Shown piece by piece: positions 43,248 through 51,234 of a stretch of 52,673 nt of DNA. Under the pieces are notes generated by a model that did no database searches, was not told where the DNA came from, and was given only the letters and a program-made list of their open reading frames with translations. Made by a program: the position numbers and the translations under genes. Each line of letters opens with the position of its first letter. Position 1 is the stretch's first letter. This stretch comes from Nitrospirota bacterium (GTDB lineage Bacteria > Nitrospirota > Thermodesulfovibrionia > SZUA-242): positions 1 through 52,673 of the forward strand of contig JACRHH010000029.1 of NCBI GenBank assembly GCA_016212095.1, written 5' to 3'.

Positions 43248-43871
43248 TTAATGATGAGCGGGAGCCTTGCCGCCCCGCTGTTCCATCCAGTTGAAAAAAG
43301 CCATCAGTATGCCTACAGCGAAGAATCCGCCGGTTGGCATGATCATTATAAGAAGCGGCTTCACGCCTCCGGTAAGCGAAACGCCCCAGAGGCTGCCCTT
43401 GCCGATAAGCTCGCGGAAAAAGCTGATTATCGTCAGCGCAACCAGAAAGCCAAGCCCCATGCCTATGCCGTCGAACATCGACGGCGTAACCTTGTTTTTG
43501 CTGGCAAAAAGCTCGGCGCGCGCCAAGATGGAGGCGAAAGCCACGATAAGCTGGATATACAGCCCCATCGAGCGGTAAACATCCCTTGCATACGCGGCCA
43601 TGCCCATGTCGGCAACCGAAACCCAGCCGGAGATTACCAGCATGAACACCGGAATTCTTATCTTGGAGTTGATGACATTTCGCATCAGGGCAATGGTGAT
43701 ATTCACCATCGTCTGCACGAAAAGCACGGCCACGCCCATCAGCACGCCGTTTTTAAGGCCGCTGGTCACGGCGATTGACGGGCAGAGGCTGATCGCAAGC
43801 TTGAAGATCGTGTTCTCGGCGAATATGCCGTTTTTTATCAGTTGCCAGTTAGTCATTGTCGTGGCGCTCAT
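43248..43871 (-). CDS. rnfE: RnfE, membrane subunit of the Rnf complex
   Basis: The 207-aa protein has six predicted helices, with LAISLCPSIAVTSGLKNGV near residue 25 and a mid-protein segment PVFMLVISGWVSVADMGM. It is paired with RnfA in the ion-translocating core. Its start overlaps the rnfG stop at 43871, so translation is coupled. Confidence 0.95.
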   Translation of the reverse strand: MSATTMTNWQLIKNGIFAENTIFKLAISLCPSIAVTSGLKNGVLMGVAVLFVQTMVNITIALMRNVINSKIRIPVFMLVISGWVSVADMGMAAYARDVYRSMGLYIQLIVAFASILARAELFASKNKVTPSMFDGIGMGLGFLVALTIISFFRELIGKGSLWGVSLTGGVKPLLIMIMPTGGFFAVGILMAFFNWMEQRGGKAPAHH

Positions 43872-44515
43872 TAGTGGTGACCTCCTGCGGCATTCTCAGC
43901 CGGTTGTGCCGGTGCTTTACCGGAAAGGACATCGGTTATCATCTGCACGCCGCCCCGGACGCCTCCTCCAACCCTGTCGTCCGTGACCGCTCGGCTGGAA
44001 ATGGTCGCGCCCGAAATCGCCTGTATATACTTCTGGTCGCCGTCTTTTACAACCTTCAGCGTGTCCAGTGTCTTGCCCTTGAACTGTTCCTTCCATGCCG
44101 GAACCTCAACCTCATCGCCAAGTCCGGGGGTTTCCTTCTGACTTACAACGTCGATCTTCTGAAGCACCAGCTTCGGGTCGAGAGCGATAAGCGTGTTTAT
44201 GTAGCTCGAATAACCCTTGCCGAAGGTTTCAACAATATATCCGACAGCCTCGCCACCCTTTTTCGCGGTGTAGTAGCCCGCGTTATGGTGATGAATCGGC
44301 CATTCGCCGGTCTTCTCGATGGAGTCGGCCTCAGGCATCATCTGTTTCAGGCGCTCTTCCTTCTCCTGCTTTGCCTTGGTGAAGATCACCGGCGAGGTCT
44401 TTGCGTAAACCGTGGCCAGAATCATGCCGCCGATTGCGTATATGACAACAAGGTTGATAATGATTTTCGCGATGTCGGCGCCGGTCATTTCAGTATCGTT
44501 ATTCTGCTTGCTCAT
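43871..44515 (-). CDS. rnfG: RnfG, flavoprotein subunit of the Rnf complex
   Basis: The 214-aa protein has one N-terminal transmembrane helix at about 17-38 and an extracytoplasmic FMN-binding domain. SGAT at 168-171 contains Thr171, the expected covalent FMN attachment site. The C-terminus is Gly-rich. It relays electrons on the outer side of the membrane. It overlaps rnfD by 4 bp and rnfE by 1 bp. Confidence 0.95.
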   Translation of the reverse strand: MSKQNNDTEMTGADIAKIIINLVVIYAIGGMILATVYAKTSPVIFTKAKQEKEERLKQMMPEADSIEKTGEWPIHHHNAGYYTAKKGGEAVGYIVETFGKGYSSYINTLIALDPKLVLQKIDVVSQKETPGLGDEVEVPAWKEQFKGKTLDTLKVVKDGDQKYIQAISGATISSRAVTDDRVGGGVRGGVQMITDVLSGKAPAQPAENAAGGHH

Positions 44516-45504
44516 GCCGCTGCCTCCTTCTTCTTTACAACCGCGCCGAACGTCTTCGACCTCATGCCGCGGTCAAGAAGCGGGGCGAAGCAGTTCATGA
44601 TCAGAATCGCGAACATCACGCCCTCCGGATAACCGCCCTTCAATCGAATGAGCATCGTGAGCAGGCCGCAACCTGCGCCGAACACAAGCTGCGCCTTGCG
44701 GGTTGACGGGCCGGTCACATAGTCTGTTGCCATGAAGAACGCTCCAAGCATCAGTCCGCCCGCAAGCAGGTGGAATACCGGATCGCCGCCGGTTACAGCC
44801 GCAACCAGCGCCACCGTGCCAATGAACGAAACCGGAATGTGCCATGTTATATAGCCGCGAACCAGCAGGAATATGCCGCCAAGCAATATCGCGAGCGCCG
44901 ATGTTTCACCGAGCGAACCGCTGACGCTGCCAAAGAAAAGATTGCTGTACAGGGCCGAAGTTCCGCCGAACTGCTCCACCAGCTTGCCCATGCCCTCCAT
45001 CTTGGCGATGTTCAAGGGAGTGGCCGCCGATACGGCATCCATCGAGGCTATCGACTTTACGGGTTCCATCCAGGTGGTCATCGCCTTTGGCCATGAGATA
45101 AGCACAAATGCGCGGCCAATAAGCGCCGGATTGAATATGTTGTATCCAAGTCCGCCGAAGAGATGCTTGGTTATGGTGATGGCCACCAGCGATCCTGTAA
45201 CCGGGATGTATAACGGTATGTTCGCCGGAAGGTTGAATCCAAGAAGCAATCCAGTGAGAACCGCGCTTCCGTCGGTAATCGTAACCGGCTTTCCAACGAT
45301 CTTCTGCGTTGCGGCCTCGAAGCCCACGCAGGCGGCAATCGTCACAAGCTGGACGATAAGCGCCTGAATTCCGAAATAGTATATCGACGCCGCAAACGCG
45401 GGCATCAGGGCCAGCGACACCATCCACATGATGCGCTGAACCGATTCATCGCTTCGCACATGCGGGCTGACCGAAACTATCAGTTTATGCTGATCTTCGC
45501 TCAT
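44512..45504 (-). CDS. rnfD: RnfD, membrane flavoprotein subunit of the Rnf complex
   Basis: The 330-aa protein has about nine or ten helices. DAVSAATPL at 156-164 contains Thr162, the expected covalent FMN site. GLGYNIFNPALIGRAF at 118-133 and GGLMLGAFFMATDYVTGP near 260 are conserved in the family. It is part of the ion-translocating core. It starts 39 bp after the rnfC stop. Confidence 0.95.
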   Translation of the reverse strand: MSEDQHKLIVSVSPHVRSDESVQRIMWMVSLALMPAFAASIYYFGIQALIVQLVTIAACVGFEAATQKIVGKPVTITDGSAVLTGLLLGFNLPANIPLYIPVTGSLVAITITKHLFGGLGYNIFNPALIGRAFVLISWPKAMTTWMEPVKSIASMDAVSAATPLNIAKMEGMGKLVEQFGGTSALYSNLFFGSVSGSLGETSALAILLGGIFLLVRGYITWHIPVSFIGTVALVAAVTGGDPVFHLLAGGLMLGAFFMATDYVTGPSTRKAQLVFGAGCGLLTMLIRLKGGYPEGVMFAILIMNCFAPLLDRGMRSKTFGAVVKKKEAAA

Positions 45505-45542
45505 CTCTCTCCCATCCTTAAAATGTTATTGAGGCGCGCCTG

Positions 45543-46853
45543 CTACTTGCGGGCGAGGCTCATCTTGGCAAGCTTCACCCACTGCACAATGGGCCGCTTC
45601 GCCGGGCAGACATACGCGCATGTTCCGCACTCGAAGCAGTTCATGAGGTCGTATTCCTTCATCTCCTCGTAAAAGCCCTTCTCCGCCAGCACGCTCAACA
45701 TCTGCGGCTGAAGGCCCATCGGACAGGCGTCGATGCAGCGCCCGCACCGTATGCACGGGCCATGCACGGCGATTTCGGATTCTTCCGGATCGAGCACCAG
45801 CAGTCCGGACGTTCCCTTGATGACCGGCGAATCGAGGTTCGACTGCGCCATGCCCATCATCGGGCCGCCCGCTATAACCTTGCCGGTGTCGAACTTGAAC
45901 CCGCCGCATTCCGCAACAAGCTGGGAAAGCGGCGTGCCGATGCGAACCTTGAGGTTTTTTGTTTCGTTTATGCCGCGCCCCGTAACGGATACCACGCGCT
46001 CAAGAAGCGGCCTGCCGTAGCGCACAGCCTCGTAAACAGCCACCGCCGTACCCACGTTCTGAACGATAACGCCCACATCCATCGGCAAGCCGCCAGCCGG
46101 AACCTCCTTGCCGACAATCGCCTTTATCAGCATCTTCTCGGCGCCCTGCGGATACTTCACCTTGAGCGAGTAGACATCTATCGAGCTGTCGCCCTTCGTT
46201 ACCGCCTCCATGGCGGCAACAGCGTCGGGCTTGTTGTCCTCGATGCCGATATAGCCCTTCGACACCCCGGCTATCTTCATCAGAATCTTCAGGCCGTTTA
46301 CAACCGCGCCCGGCTCTTCCAGCATCACCCGGTGGTCGGCTGTAAGATACGGCTCGCACTCGGCTCCGTTAATGATGACGCAATCGATCTTCTTCTCTTT
46401 CGGCGGCGAAAGTTTCACATGAGTGGGAAATGTAGCGCCGCCCATGCCCACTATTCCGGCTGTCTTCACAATGTCGCGAAGCGCGGCTGCGTCGAGCGAG
46501 CCCCAGTCTGAATGCTCCTTGATTCCTTCGGCCCATTCCTCCTTGCCGTCGTTTTCTATCACGATAGCCGGAATGTCGCGCCCCATTGTGTGGGGGAAAG
46601 GCGCAATAGCCACAACCTTGCCCGACACCGTGGCATGAACCGGAGACGACACAAACGCATCAGCCGAACCGATAATCTGCCCCTTCTTCACCAGATCACC
46701 CACAGCTACCTTAGCCTGGCAAGGAGCGCCGATATGCTGGCTGAGGGGGATAATCACTCTGGATGGGACTTTTGCTTCGGTAATGGATTTCGCGGCGGAT
46801 AGCGCCTTGTTGTCGGGGGGATGCGTGCCTCGTTCGAAAGTTCCCGTATTCAA
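45543..46853 (-). CDS. rnfC: RnfC, NADH- and FMN-binding subunit of the Rnf complex
   Basis: The 436-aa peripheral protein has an N-terminal barrel-sandwich domain (FERGTHPPDNKALS). A Complex I 51-kDa-like nucleotide/FMN domain follows (GMGGATFPTHVKL and INGAECEPYLTADHRVM). Two 4Fe-4S motifs lie near the C-terminus (CIRCGRCIDACP and CFECGTCAYVCP). It reduces NAD+ with electrons from the membrane part, or the reverse. The start is TTG at 46853, seven bases after GGAGG; no ATG fits as well. It is the first gene of rnfCDGEAB. Confidence 0.95.
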   Translation of the reverse strand: MNTGTFERGTHPPDNKALSAAKSITEAKVPSRVIIPLSQHIGAPCQAKVAVGDLVKKGQIIGSADAFVSSPVHATVSGKVVAIAPFPHTMGRDIPAIVIENDGKEEWAEGIKEHSDWGSLDAAALRDIVKTAGIVGMGGATFPTHVKLSPPKEKKIDCVIINGAECEPYLTADHRVMLEEPGAVVNGLKILMKIAGVSKGYIGIEDNKPDAVAAMEAVTKGDSSIDVYSLKVKYPQGAEKMLIKAIVGKEVPAGGLPMDVGVIVQNVGTAVAVYEAVRYGRPLLERVVSVTGRGINETKNLKVRIGTPLSQLVAECGGFKFDTGKVIAGGPMMGMAQSNLDSPVIKGTSGLLVLDPEESEIAVHGPCIRCGRCIDACPMGLQPQMLSVLAEKGFYEEMKEYDLMNCFECGTCAYVCPAKRPIVQWVKLAKMSLARK

Positions 46854-47211: not shown

Positions 47212-47226
47212 GGCATGAACATTGCT
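47212..47226 (+). promoter_or_regulatory. sigma54-type promoter of the PEP-CTERM gene
   Basis: GGCATGAACATTGCT has the invariant GG (47212-47213) and GC (47224-47225) exactly 10 bp apart, with the TTGCT end of the -12 box matching consensus. Transcription would begin near 47237, giving a leader of about 33 bases before the ATG at 47270. Confidence 0.65.
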
Positions 47227-47269
47227 TGCTTTTGAAGCGCAGCACATCACGTTCGGAGGGGGAACGCTC

Positions 47270-47929
47270 ATGCAAACCGTCGCAATCACGCTGTCTTTTT
47301 TTATCGCCTCAATGCTTTTATCGTTCAATAACGCCGCCGCCACGGCATACAAGGGTATCGAATTCCCGGCTGGGATAGTGTCGTTCGCAGACAGGGTGAT
47401 CAGTTACATGCCCGGAACGGGCGGCGTTGGAAGCGGCTATGATGATCCTCAACATGCCCTTGGCGTGCCGGATTATCTTCTCACGCCGCCTGGCACAATA
47501 GCCTACACTTCCATGGGCAGCGGCGGAAGCCTCGTGCTCAAGTTCACCGACAATTCCCTTGCAACATCGGGAAGTAATGCGCCGGATCTCTGGGTATTCG
47601 AAATCGGCGGTTTCGAGGCGACGGAAGTCTTCATCAGTGGTAACGGCAGCAACTGGATTGACGTGGGAGCAACATCCAGCTCAATGCGCGGAATCGACAT
47701 TGACGCCTTCGAATCGTCCGGCGTCCTGCCCGGCAGCCGCTACGCATACGTAAAGCTCATCGATCTCACAGTCGGTTCGAACGGCTATTCAGCCGGGGCC
47801 GACATCGACGCAGTAGGCGCGATAAGCTCAGCCGCGCCCATCCCCAACCCGGAGCCGGGAACCATGGCGCTCATGGCAGTGGGGCTTGGCGACATGGCGT
47901 GGTGGAGGGGGAAAACGCGGAGAAAATAG
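47270..47929 (+). CDS. PEP-CTERM sorting-signal protein
   Basis: The 219-aa exported protein has a signal peptide (ITLSFFIASMLLSF, cleavage after about AAATA). A beta-rich body follows with DDPQHALGVPDY and SLVLKFTDNSLA, typical of discoidin/laminin-like surface domains. The C-terminal PEP-CTERM signal is PEPGTMALMAVGLGD, then a short hydrophobic helix and a basic end (RGKTRRK). Such proteins are processed by an exosortase and moved to the cell surface or matrix. The start at 47270 has GGAGGGGG (47255-47262) seven bases upstream; the frame also reaches 47222. No exosortase gene is in the window. Confidence 0.82.
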   Translation: MQTVAITLSFFIASMLLSFNNAAATAYKGIEFPAGIVSFADRVISYMPGTGGVGSGYDDPQHALGVPDYLLTPPGTIAYTSMGSGGSLVLKFTDNSLATSGSNAPDLWVFEIGGFEATEVFISGNGSNWIDVGATSSSMRGIDIDAFESSGVLPGSRYAYVKLIDLTVGSNGYSAGADIDAVGAISSAAPIPNPEPGTMALMAVGLGDMAWWRGKTRRK

Positions 47930-48007: not shown

Positions 48008-48472
48008 ATGAAATTATTCCCTGTTTTGGCTTCACTGGCGGTTGCGCTATTTGTCTTTGGTTGCGGGAATCAGGAGGGCGACGCCCCTTCGATTACGGAG
48101 AACACAAGCCGAATAGTGGAACAGACACACCAGGCTCAGGATTCCACTCGCAAGGCATCCAATTCGTATCAGAAGGTTGAACTGCGGGCTGGTGTAATGA
48201 ACGGCAGGGGGTTAATCCGCAGCAATCCGGCAGGAATCTACTGCGGAGAGGATTCTGGCGGTCGAATAAACAGGGATTGCTCCGAGAATTATTCACCGGG
48301 TACGGTCGTTACAATCAAGGCTAGCCCGATATCCGGATGGGCACTGGAAAGCTGGTCGGGCGCTTGCAATGGAACAGGCTCGTGCAGGGTAACAATACCG
48401 AAAGCATCTAAATCCAAGCCGGTTGTGTACGTTCATGCTCACTTCAAGCCCTCGCGCAAATTCGGATACTGA
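48008..48472 (+). CDS. small lipoprotein with a bacterial-repeat-like domain
   Basis: The 154-aa protein has a lipobox ending VFGC (Cys19). Its C-terminal half follows a known surface-repeat pattern: IRSNPAGIYCGEDSGG, a second Cys, SPGTVVTIKASPISGWALES, WSGACNGTGSC, and a last strand VYVHAHF. The four Cys could form two disulfides. Ligand and role are unknown. It stands 78 bp after the PEP-CTERM gene and before a hairpin, probably as its own unit. Confidence 0.72.
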   Translation: MKLFPVLASLAVALFVFGCGNQEGDAPSITENTSRIVEQTHQAQDSTRKASNSYQKVELRAGVMNGRGLIRSNPAGIYCGEDSGGRINRDCSENYSPGTVVTIKASPISGWALESWSGACNGTGSCRVTIPKASKSKPVVYVHAHFKPSRKFGY

Positions 48473-48593: not shown

Positions 48594-48980
48594 ATGCAAT
48601 TGATGCTGAAGAGGCTGTTACGGCTTGCGCTTACAGGTTCAACCACGGTTATACTGGCGGCTTGTTATGGCCCGCCAATGGATCAGAGGGATCCGTACAA
48701 CTTGAAGGAAAAGCACCTGACGGCAAAAAATTCCACCGGGAATCCCATCCCCGGCCTGAGAGTTCAATTGTACGAGAATCAGAATCCGCTTGAGCAAAAA
48801 CAGACAGACAATAACGGCAAGGCATTCTTCGCCTATTACGATACAGGCGCACAGTATCGTCTCAAGGTCGAGGATACGGACGGCCCGGCAAACGGCGGAG
48901 AGTTTCTGTCTCAGGAGATTCAGGTTGGTGAAGTGGAAGACTATCCGGTAACACTCACGGAAAAGACGGATGGCGTTTGA
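48594..48980 (+). CDS. rSAM-associated small lipoprotein
   Basis: The 128-aa protein has a signal peptide ending in LAAC, so Cys24 is lipidated. It continues YGPPMDQRDPY and then a carboxypeptidase-regulatory-like beta sandwich (GNPIPGLRVQLYEN, TDNNGKAFFAYYDTG, VEDTDGPANGGEFLSQEI). The pattern matches the lipoprotein member of the 'rSAM/lipoprotein' pairs known mainly from Bacteroidetes. The next gene is a radical SAM enzyme overlapping by 11 bp, so the pair is a unit. A GAGGGGGG stretch precedes the ATG; Met at 48603 is an alternative start. What the enzyme does to it is unknown. Confidence 0.78.
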   Translation: MQLMLKRLLRLALTGSTTVILAACYGPPMDQRDPYNLKEKHLTAKNSTGNPIPGLRVQLYENQNPLEQKQTDNNGKAFFAYYDTGAQYRLKVEDTDGPANGGEFLSQEIQVGEVEDYPVTLTEKTDGV

Positions 48981-50043
48981 GAGAGGAAAAACCATTGTCA
49001 ACCGGCTCTACAAGCAAATGGAAACAAGGGAACACCGGCTTTGGTACGTTTTCCTTGAAATAACAAGACGTTGCAACCTGTCTTGCCTCCATTGCGGCTC
49101 CGACTGCCGAATGCAGCCCGACTCCCCGCTTCTGACAACCGATAGCTGGCTCAAGATAATCCGCTACTGTCGCGAACACTTCGGCGATGGACTGGCATTC
49201 ATAATAACCGGCGGCGAGCCTCTCGTGCATCCCGATCTCGAAGAGATTGGAGCCGCCATTTCCGCCCTTGGGATGCGATGGGGACTGGTCACAAACGGTT
49301 ATGCACTTGACGAAAAGCGGCTACTGAAGCTCCTTGCCGCTGGGCTTTCGAGCATTACGATCAGCCTTGACGGCCCTGCGGAAAGCCACAACCGGCTGCG
49401 AAACAAGCATGACGCTTTCCAGCGGTCAACCGCTTCAATCGCTCTTTCGAGCGCAAGCGGCATCAAGTTTCACGACGTTGTTACCTGCGTCCATCCCGGA
49501 AACATGCATCAACTGGACGAAACCGCCGAAATCCTGATCCGCCTTGGCGCAACGAACTGGCGGCTGTTTCGCATATTTCCGTCAGGCAGGGCCGCCCGTA
49601 ATCCAGAACTCCTTCTGACGCACGGCCAAACATGGCAGATGCTTGACTGGATTGCCGGGAAAAGGCCGCATTACGCAGGTCTCGGCCTGAATCTGGGCGC
49701 AAGTTGTGAAGGCTATGTTCCGCTTGCAACAGACCGAACCATCCGCGATAACCCGTTTTTCTGCCGCGCGGGAATCAATATCGCATCGATCCTTTGTAAC
49801 GGCACGATCACCGGATGCTCCAACAACCACCATTCTTTTCATGAAGGCAATATCCTGCGTGATAATCTTGCCACATTGTGGGAAAAAGGCTTTGGCCGCT
49901 TCCGCGACAGGCAGTGGGTGCAACATACCGACTGCGGCGGATGCGAGCATCTGAAAGACTGCCGGGGCGGCTCAATCCATCTTTGGGAATACGGCTCGGC
50001 AAGGCCGAAATTTTGCTATATGGAGGAAATCCATCCATCATGA
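48970..50043 (+). CDS. radical SAM/SPASM enzyme of an rSAM/lipoprotein pair
   Basis: The 357-aa enzyme has the CX3CX2C motif Cys35/39/42 (CNLSCLHC) for the SAM-cleaving 4Fe-4S cluster and GGEP at 81-84. A SPASM domain carries further Cys at 246, 265, 276, 283, 322, 325, 331 and 349 for auxiliary clusters (CNGTITGCSNN, CGGCEHLKDC). SPASM enzymes modify peptides or proteins or mature cofactors. Its start lies inside the lipoprotein gene, and its stop overlaps the next start (ATGA at 50040). A modification of the lipoprotein or an exported partner is inferred. Confidence 0.85.
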   Translation: MAFERGKTIVNRLYKQMETREHRLWYVFLEITRRCNLSCLHCGSDCRMQPDSPLLTTDSWLKIIRYCREHFGDGLAFIITGGEPLVHPDLEEIGAAISALGMRWGLVTNGYALDEKRLLKLLAAGLSSITISLDGPAESHNRLRNKHDAFQRSTASIALSSASGIKFHDVVTCVHPGNMHQLDETAEILIRLGATNWRLFRIFPSGRAARNPELLLTHGQTWQMLDWIAGKRPHYAGLGLNLGASCEGYVPLATDRTIRDNPFFCRAGINIASILCNGTITGCSNNHHSFHEGNILRDNLATLWEKGFGRFRDRQWVQHTDCGGCEHLKDCRGGSIHLWEYGSARPKFCYMEEIHPS

Positions 50044-50663
50044 CAGACGCCATTCTCCTGATCGGCCCGACAGGCTCCGGCAAGTCGCCGCTTGGCGACA
50101 TGATAGCCGGGCGCGGCATGTTCGGGCGACGGCATCATCATTTCGATTTCGGATGCGAGCTTCGGCGCATCGCCTCCGGATCGGCCCCGGCGCATCTGTT
50201 CAACAATTCGGATGTATCGTTCGTGCGTTCGGTGCTAAACGACGGTGTTCTGCTTGAGGATCATCATTTCCCGCTTGCCGGAAAGATAATCCGGCATTAT
50301 TTCGAACGCGTTGGCGTATCGCAAGACGACAGGCTTGTGCTGAACGGCCTGCCGCGCCATGCCGGACAGGCGCGCGACATGGCCGAAATCGTCCGTTTTG
50401 ACGCAGTTGTGGTGCTGGAATGCGACGCACAGACAGTTCACGAGCGGATATGCCGCGATACCGGCGGCGACAGGGCCGAACGATGCGACGACGCAATCGA
50501 GCTTATTGCGAAAAAGCTTGCGATATTCGCCGAACGCACCGCGCCGCTCACCAATCATTTCAGCGCAAACGGAATACCGGTCATGCGGATTCCGGTCGGC
50601 GCGCAGTCGAGCACGGAATCCGCCTTCGAGATGCTGCTTTCAATAGCATCAGAAACCGGCTGA
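50040..50663 (+). CDS. adenylate-kinase-like P-loop kinase with short lid
   Basis: The 207-aa protein has the P-loop LIGPTGSGKSPLGD at about 7-20. NMP-binding elements are FDFGCELRRIAS near 35 and LVLNGLPRHAGQARDM near 100 (compare GFPRTxxQA of adenylate kinases). RAERCDDAIELI follows a very short lid, and ERTAPLTNHF matches the family YxxxTxPLxxYY stretch. The lid is shorter than in long-form adenylate kinases and has no zinc Cys. The ATG at 50040 overlaps the radical SAM stop. Nucleotide phosphorylation is the likely reaction. Why it is coupled to the rSAM pair is unknown. Confidence 0.78.
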   Translation: MTDAILLIGPTGSGKSPLGDMIAGRGMFGRRHHHFDFGCELRRIASGSAPAHLFNNSDVSFVRSVLNDGVLLEDHHFPLAGKIIRHYFERVGVSQDDRLVLNGLPRHAGQARDMAEIVRFDAVVVLECDAQTVHERICRDTGGDRAERCDDAIELIAKKLAIFAERTAPLTNHFSANGIPVMRIPVGAQSSTESAFEMLLSIASETG

Positions 50664-50676
50664 GCTATCCTCAAAG

Positions 50677-51234
50677 CTATTTCGACGGAACGAACTTCAT
50701 TGCCGCCGAGTTCATGCAGTAGCGTAGCCCGGTTGGTTTAGGCCCGTCGTCGAAAACATGACCCAGATGCGCGTCGCAGCGGCTACACAAAACCTCGGTT
50801 CGTTGCGTGAACAGGCTGTTGTCCGGCTTCGTGGCAATGTTTTCGGGCGCAATCGGCTGCCAGAAGCTGGGCCATCCCGTGCCGGATTCATACTTGTGCT
50901 CAGATCTGTACAGATCGTTTCCGCAGCATACGCATTTGTAAATGCCTTTTGCGTGATTGTCCCATGTCTCACCGGTGTACGCCTGTTCCGTTCCCTTCTC
51001 GCGCGTCACATGATACTGCTCCGGAGTCAGCATCGCCCGCCACTCTGATGCGCTTTTTGTCACCTTCGCGCTCATGATGTACCCCTTTGTTTCAGCCGAA
51101 TAAAGCCGCAGGCTGGAATTTGTGGCTGATTGCAATGGCGCGGCTTTTTTGTCATCGGATGCCGCTGAACACGCTGTCAGAAACAGCATAAGGATGGAAG
51201 CAGTAAAACCTGCAAGCAGAATTGAGGATCGCAT
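50677..51234 (-). CDS. msrB: lipoprotein methionine-(R)-sulfoxide reductase
   Basis: The 185-aa protein has a lipobox FLTAC (Cys22) and then a full MsrB domain. Zinc ligands are Cys101/Cys104 (CVCCG) and Cys150/Cys153 (CSRC). GTGWPSFW lies at 118-125 and [10 protein letters not shown] near 156-165. The catalytic Cys173 is in [11 protein letters not shown]. It repairs oxidised methionines in envelope proteins, reduced through a periplasmic thiol system. The gene is convergent with the kinase gene, 13 bp apart. Confidence 0.93.

Follow-up and report, generated by a model that had tools for sequence, protein, structure and literature searches.

In the window, that is, the whole 52,673-nucleotide stretch of Nitrospirota DNA analyzed here, we identified three overlapping forward-strand genes encoding a small lipoprotein (48594..48980, 128 aa), a radical SAM/SPASM enzyme (48970..50043, 357 aa), and an adenylate kinase (ADK)-like P-loop kinase (50040..50663, 207 aa from the ATG at 50040). 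On sequence inspection, the lipoprotein and radical SAM open reading frames (ORFs) overlap by 11 bp (48970-48980), and the kinase start overlaps the radical SAM stop by 4 bp (ATGA, 50040-50043). The kinase start was placed at 50040 because homologues show that start, and an ORF listed from 49878 is a mere in-frame upstream extension of the same reading frame. The msrB gene, encoding an MsrB lipoprotein (50677..51234, reverse strand; TIGR00357, 193.5 bits, with a lipobox), is convergent, 13 bp past the kinase stop, and lies, like the kinase, outside the system proposed below. These ORFs are not chance, since each matches curated families and aligns full length with homologues. The preliminary description of this DNA had reported the two overlaps, a lipoprotein with its cysteine at position 24, a SPASM enzyme with eleven or more cluster cysteines, and the convergent msrB lipoprotein gene, all of which agree with the coordinates, cysteine counts, and profile matches given here. 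The search for promoters and terminators at the cassette gave no useful signal. Directly 5' of the cassette, and likewise on the forward strand, lies a gene for a lipoprotein with an InlB-type B-repeat (Flg_new_2; 48008-48472), and the upstream region also encodes a surface protein of the PEP-CTERM (exosortase-type) kind (47222-47929) and, on the reverse strand, RnfG, RnfD, and RnfC-like components of the Rnf electron-transport complex (43871-46853).

The radical SAM enzyme matched the Pfam Radical_SAM and SPASM families, with the CX3CX2C motif at Cys35, Cys39, and Cys42. Across 96 aligned family members, 12 of its cysteines were near-invariant (35, 39, 42, 46, 173, 246, 265, 283, 322, 325, 331, and 349), comprising the CX3CX2C set, then Cys46, Cys173, and Cys246, and a further six within the SPASM region. 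TIGR04133-like enzymes have Ser or Gly at the usual fourth SPASM cysteine of the CX3C type, and Cys246, within C-E-G-[YFW], may replace this missing residue. Against TIGR04133, the window enzyme scored 332.8 bits (E 2e-99), with the next-best family 210 bits lower at 122.9 bits, but this score lies under the curated cut-off of 425 bits. A tree of 96 relatives placed the enzyme in a 12-member clade with a support of 100, the other 11 members being Bacteroidales sequences at no more than 54% identity, and trees kept it with TIGR04133 enzymes, apart from other SPASM families. Because these 11 nearest relatives also score below the cut-off, at 333-372 bits, we consider the window enzyme to belong to a below-cut-off sister sub-clade and not to be a strict TIGR04133 member. 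Single-sequence AlphaFold models of the enzyme and the kinase had a pLDDT of 37, too low for use.

The lipoprotein consists of a signal peptide, a lipobox (L-A-A-Cys24), the residues Y25-G26-P27-P28, and then a small Ig/transthyretin-like domain. It was identified as a single copy in the genome and scored 31 bits (E 2e-7) against TIGR04134, under the cut-off of 39.8 bits, and it shows the traits of that family, including the lipobox, CYGxP, a C-terminal domain with D-x-DG-x-x-NGG, and adjacency to a radical SAM gene. It aligned full length with the partners of the clade's enzymes, with C24, Y25, G26, and P28 invariant (alignment A2, n = 11).

TIGR04133 and TIGR04134 (rSAM_w_lipo and lipo_with_rSAM) form a hypothetical-equivalog pair, mainly from Bacteroidales. 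The first two genes had been likened to this pair, and the likeness stands, with matches well above every other family and below both curated cut-offs; profile scores and trees confirmed the two genes as a divergent variant of this kind. They share with the described pair the gene order, the lipoprotein partner, the SPASM cysteine pattern, and the CYGxP motif, and they differ in their scores, their below-cut-off sub-clade, their occurrence outside Bacteroidota, and the kinase behind them. In line with the expectation that such pairs come mainly from Bacteroidetes, the kind is common in Bacteroidales, with a TIGR04133-like enzyme in 82 of 344 sampled genomes (E<=1e-60). No such enzyme was detected in the other 295 sampled genomes of the window's phylum (E<=1e-50); whole-genome sampling for the pair covered this phylum and Bacteroidales, a scope that bears on any donor assignment. 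A Treponema plasmid also carried a radical SAM-lipoprotein pair, whose genes overlap by 14 bp and lack a kinase neighbor. Lateral transfer of the pair is likely because the enzyme sits in a fully supported Bacteroidales clade and is absent from the 295 genomes of its own phylum, and the simplest reading of these comparisons is lateral acquisition of the two genes. Contamination of the metagenome-assembled genome is an unlikely source, since a kinase native to the phylum and the radical SAM gene overlap within one contig, and completeness and contamination of the genome are rated at 100% and 0%, respectively. A genome_contigs scan returned only an irrelevant Muribaculaceae fragment.

The kinase was above the gathering score of Pfam ADK (PF00406; 38 bits against 26.8) and far under the adenylate kinase equivalog cut-offs (42 bits against 150 and more). 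It shares with the adenylate kinase/NMP kinase superfamily the P-loop, DFGxELR, GLPRHxGQA, and RxDD motifs, and it differs in forming a distinct family without a name in the libraries searched (loci L164-L188 and window 50040-50663). Its conserved Lys, Arg, and Asp motifs point to an active kinase of the nucleotide type. Its 4-bp overlap and same-strand order indicate that it is probably cotranscribed with the upstream pair, and these features, together with its intact P-loop, Arg, and DD motifs, speak for a three-gene, nucleotide-dependent system in which the modification would include a phosphorylation or nucleotidyl step supplied by the kinase, as the preliminary description had suggested. 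The distribution of the kinase runs against such coupling. A profile built from alignment A1 did not detect the family at any of the 94 other TIGR04133-like loci, and 15 Bacteroidota carrier genomes had only weak matches at the level of adk genes (E 1e-11 or weaker). The family, at ~50% identity, was identified in 25 of the 296 genomes sampled from the window's phylum, 1 copy per genome, with thiC directly upstream in 12, Nudix and HD genes on either side in 9, other neighbors in 3, and a radical SAM gene in 1, the window only; no TIGR04133 enzyme was detected in the 24 other kinase-carrying genomes of the phylum sample. A tblastn search of the kinase against plasmids gave no match. The ATGA overlap is not special, because the kinase family overlaps its upstream gene by 4 bp at several of these loci, thiC and a Nudix gene among them. 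The three-gene system is highly improbable. Judged from these neighborhoods, the kinase belongs to an ADK-like family resident in the phylum and is a chance downstream neighbor of the pair, not a component of it. The preliminary description had said that its proposal would fail for a normal housekeeping adenylate kinase with no conserved linkage; the housekeeping part did not apply and the lack of conserved linkage did: the genome encodes two better-matching, true adk genes elsewhere, and we rejected the housekeeping role on this ground and on the missed equivalog cut-offs. A role as a substitute for the thiamine-phosphate kinase ThiL, an idea taken from the thiC neighbors, was also rejected, as thiL was identified above its cut-off in 21 of 21 genomes with or without the kinase.

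We analyzed the genes around TIGR04133-like enzymes for shared sequence. Of 131 genes on the enzyme's strand and no more than 250 bp away, 79 encode Y-G-x-P; of 413 more distant genes, 23 do, and rearranged or substituted control tetrapeptides occurred in only 0-5 of the 131. Counted by locus, X-Tyr-Gly-x-Pro was present in partner genes, non-lipoproteins included, at 77 of 92 TIGR04133 loci (permuted motifs, 0-5 of 95), a count that leaves out three degenerate enzymes with lost SPASM cysteines. These three TIGR04133-like enzymes (L113, L114, and L115) each lack several SPASM cysteines, and none has a YGxP gene next to it. The partners are of unlike architecture, including CYGxP lipoproteins, [E/M/V]YG[TS]P lipoproteins with a beta domain, coils with REGACVYGSPE, and KYGxP repeat proteins, and they have just the YGxP motif in common. 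Within the motif, X and x are variable (x being T, S, P, V, M, A, G, or C), Y, G, and mostly P are constant, and partners without the +3 Pro mostly keep XYG (CYGTD, CYGTL, and CYGVD). The lipobox cysteine itself is X in the window clade, the lipid-bearing Cys24 in the window, and the placement of YGxP immediately after it would fit a structural or sorting signal of lipoproteins, with the enzyme acting elsewhere. Such a signal is improbable, given that non-lipoprotein partners share only the motif and that tandem copies exist, for example, AMYGTPAEYGTP; the motif enrichment and the XYG match to spliceases described below instead make the YGxP motif the probable site of modification, which in the window corresponds to the CYGPP codons from Cys24 to Pro28 (48663..48677, forward strand). 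Non-lipoprotein TIGR04133 partners with REGACVYGSPE coils, often with two motif copies, were identified at eight loci (L091, L094, L096, L100, L151, L155, L156, and L160). At a further locus, in a Bacteroidota genome (L052:5028-7159, genome G541), a 214-aa protein carrying KYGYP six times, mostly as KYGYPC, is encoded behind a divergent radical SAM enzyme (233 bits to TIGR03913, 218 to TIGR04103, and 178 to TIGR04133) and is likely a multi-site YG-motif substrate.

The X-Tyr-Gly of PlpX substrates, which there often takes the form XYGLP, is present in the gene adjacent to the window enzyme as Cys24-Tyr25-Gly26. PlpXY excises tyramine at XYG, naturally MYG and LYG, and the splicease splice tag PIRPLYGLPI contains YGLP (PMC10533398; PMC11002830). 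At a Nostoc plasmid locus, a TIGR04103 (PlpX-type) enzyme was identified beside a Nif11 precursor ending in IALYGLPPELF, and no adjacent XYGxP precursor was found at a Tropicibacter PlpX-like locus. The match of YGxP to spliceases draws on few splicease substrates, and PlpA3, with MYGVVFP, indicates that the +3 Pro is no splicease requirement. Both TIGR04133 and PlpX-type enzymes are SPASM proteins with HCGS after the cluster motif and G-[YFW] before the SPASM domain, elements missing in AhbC/D/NirJ-type paralogues, and the two differ in one SPASM cysteine, the fourth of CX3C, with Cys246 in its place in TIGR04133 enzymes. Against TIGR04103, presumably equivalent to IPR026482, TIGR04133 enzymes scored 65-110 bits and the window enzyme 91.7 bits, under the cut-off of 725. 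In the SPASM-family tree, TIGR04133 enzymes formed their own clade, and a sister relation to PlpX-type enzymes was not recovered. The window system further differs in having a putative lipoprotein substrate instead of a Nif11/NHLP-leader peptide and in having no RRE or PlpY gene beside the pair; around the enzyme lie only the genes for the lipoprotein, the kinase, and MsrB. As HCGS and G-[YFW] are common to both but sisterhood was not recovered and no RRE gene lies at this locus, we tentatively consider that the window enzyme may work like a splicease and do not count it among the known splicease family. A comparable arrangement was seen for TIGR03913 "GDL motif" enzymes, whose adjacent DUF1843 peptides often carry P/K/L-Tyr-Gly near the N terminus (L191:4186-4899 and L192:3073-3773); these enzymes differ in being 48% identical to the Nostoc PlpX-type enzyme, not to TIGR04133, and in lacking the +3 Pro, and the XYG motif may extend to their family.

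SPASM enzymes carry out many reactions of the cyclophane, oxidation, and cross-link type, and the window enzyme could act on Y-G-x-P by such chemistry, forming a Tyr-x ring as in three-residue cyclophanes or oxidizing or cross-linking Tyr/Pro in some other way. The strong conservation of a +3 Pro that XYG splicing alone does not need and the placement of the enzyme apart from known spliceases favor this alternative, but x is highly variable, Pro and Gly included, which makes it poor for a beta-carbon cross-link, and splicing is the known precedent for YG specificity (PMC10533398; PMC11002830). We regard such other chemistry as a serious, somewhat less likely alternative, and tyramine excision at CYG(P)P as the leading candidate, though still short of an even chance. 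Our best explanation overall, held at a little under even confidence, is a laterally acquired two-gene cassette in which the radical SAM enzyme modifies the lipoprotein encoded just 5' of it at Cys24-Tyr25-Gly26-Pro27-Pro28. The modification would take place in the cytoplasm, ahead of export and lipidation, and processing by Lgt and LspA would then leave an electrophilic ketoamide adjoining the lipid anchor. Later lipidation would stay possible because splicing at C-Y-G is expected to leave Cys24 with a free amino group and a free thiol.

Neither TIGR04133 nor TIGR04134 was named in any paper returned by a literature search; Scott et al. 2022 (Chem 8:2659), which lay outside the reach of that search, reportedly describes widespread ribosomal beta-amino-acid peptides and proteins and may already include the TIGR04133 family. 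The novelty of the splicing-chemistry claim is accordingly uncertain, and what we propose as new from these comparisons is XYGxP as a candidate substrate motif for TIGR04133 enzymes. More speculatively, TIGR04133 enzymes as a whole may be spliceases for lipoproteins and other cell-envelope proteins, cutting tyramine from X-Tyr-Gly-x-Pro. Since XYGxP is common with an enzyme class of known chemistry, the function of TIGR04133/TIGR04134 becomes testable by mass spectrometry, with a predicted change of -135.07 Da, and, if true, backbone tyramine splicing would extend to lipoproteins and alter the very residue that carries the lipid.
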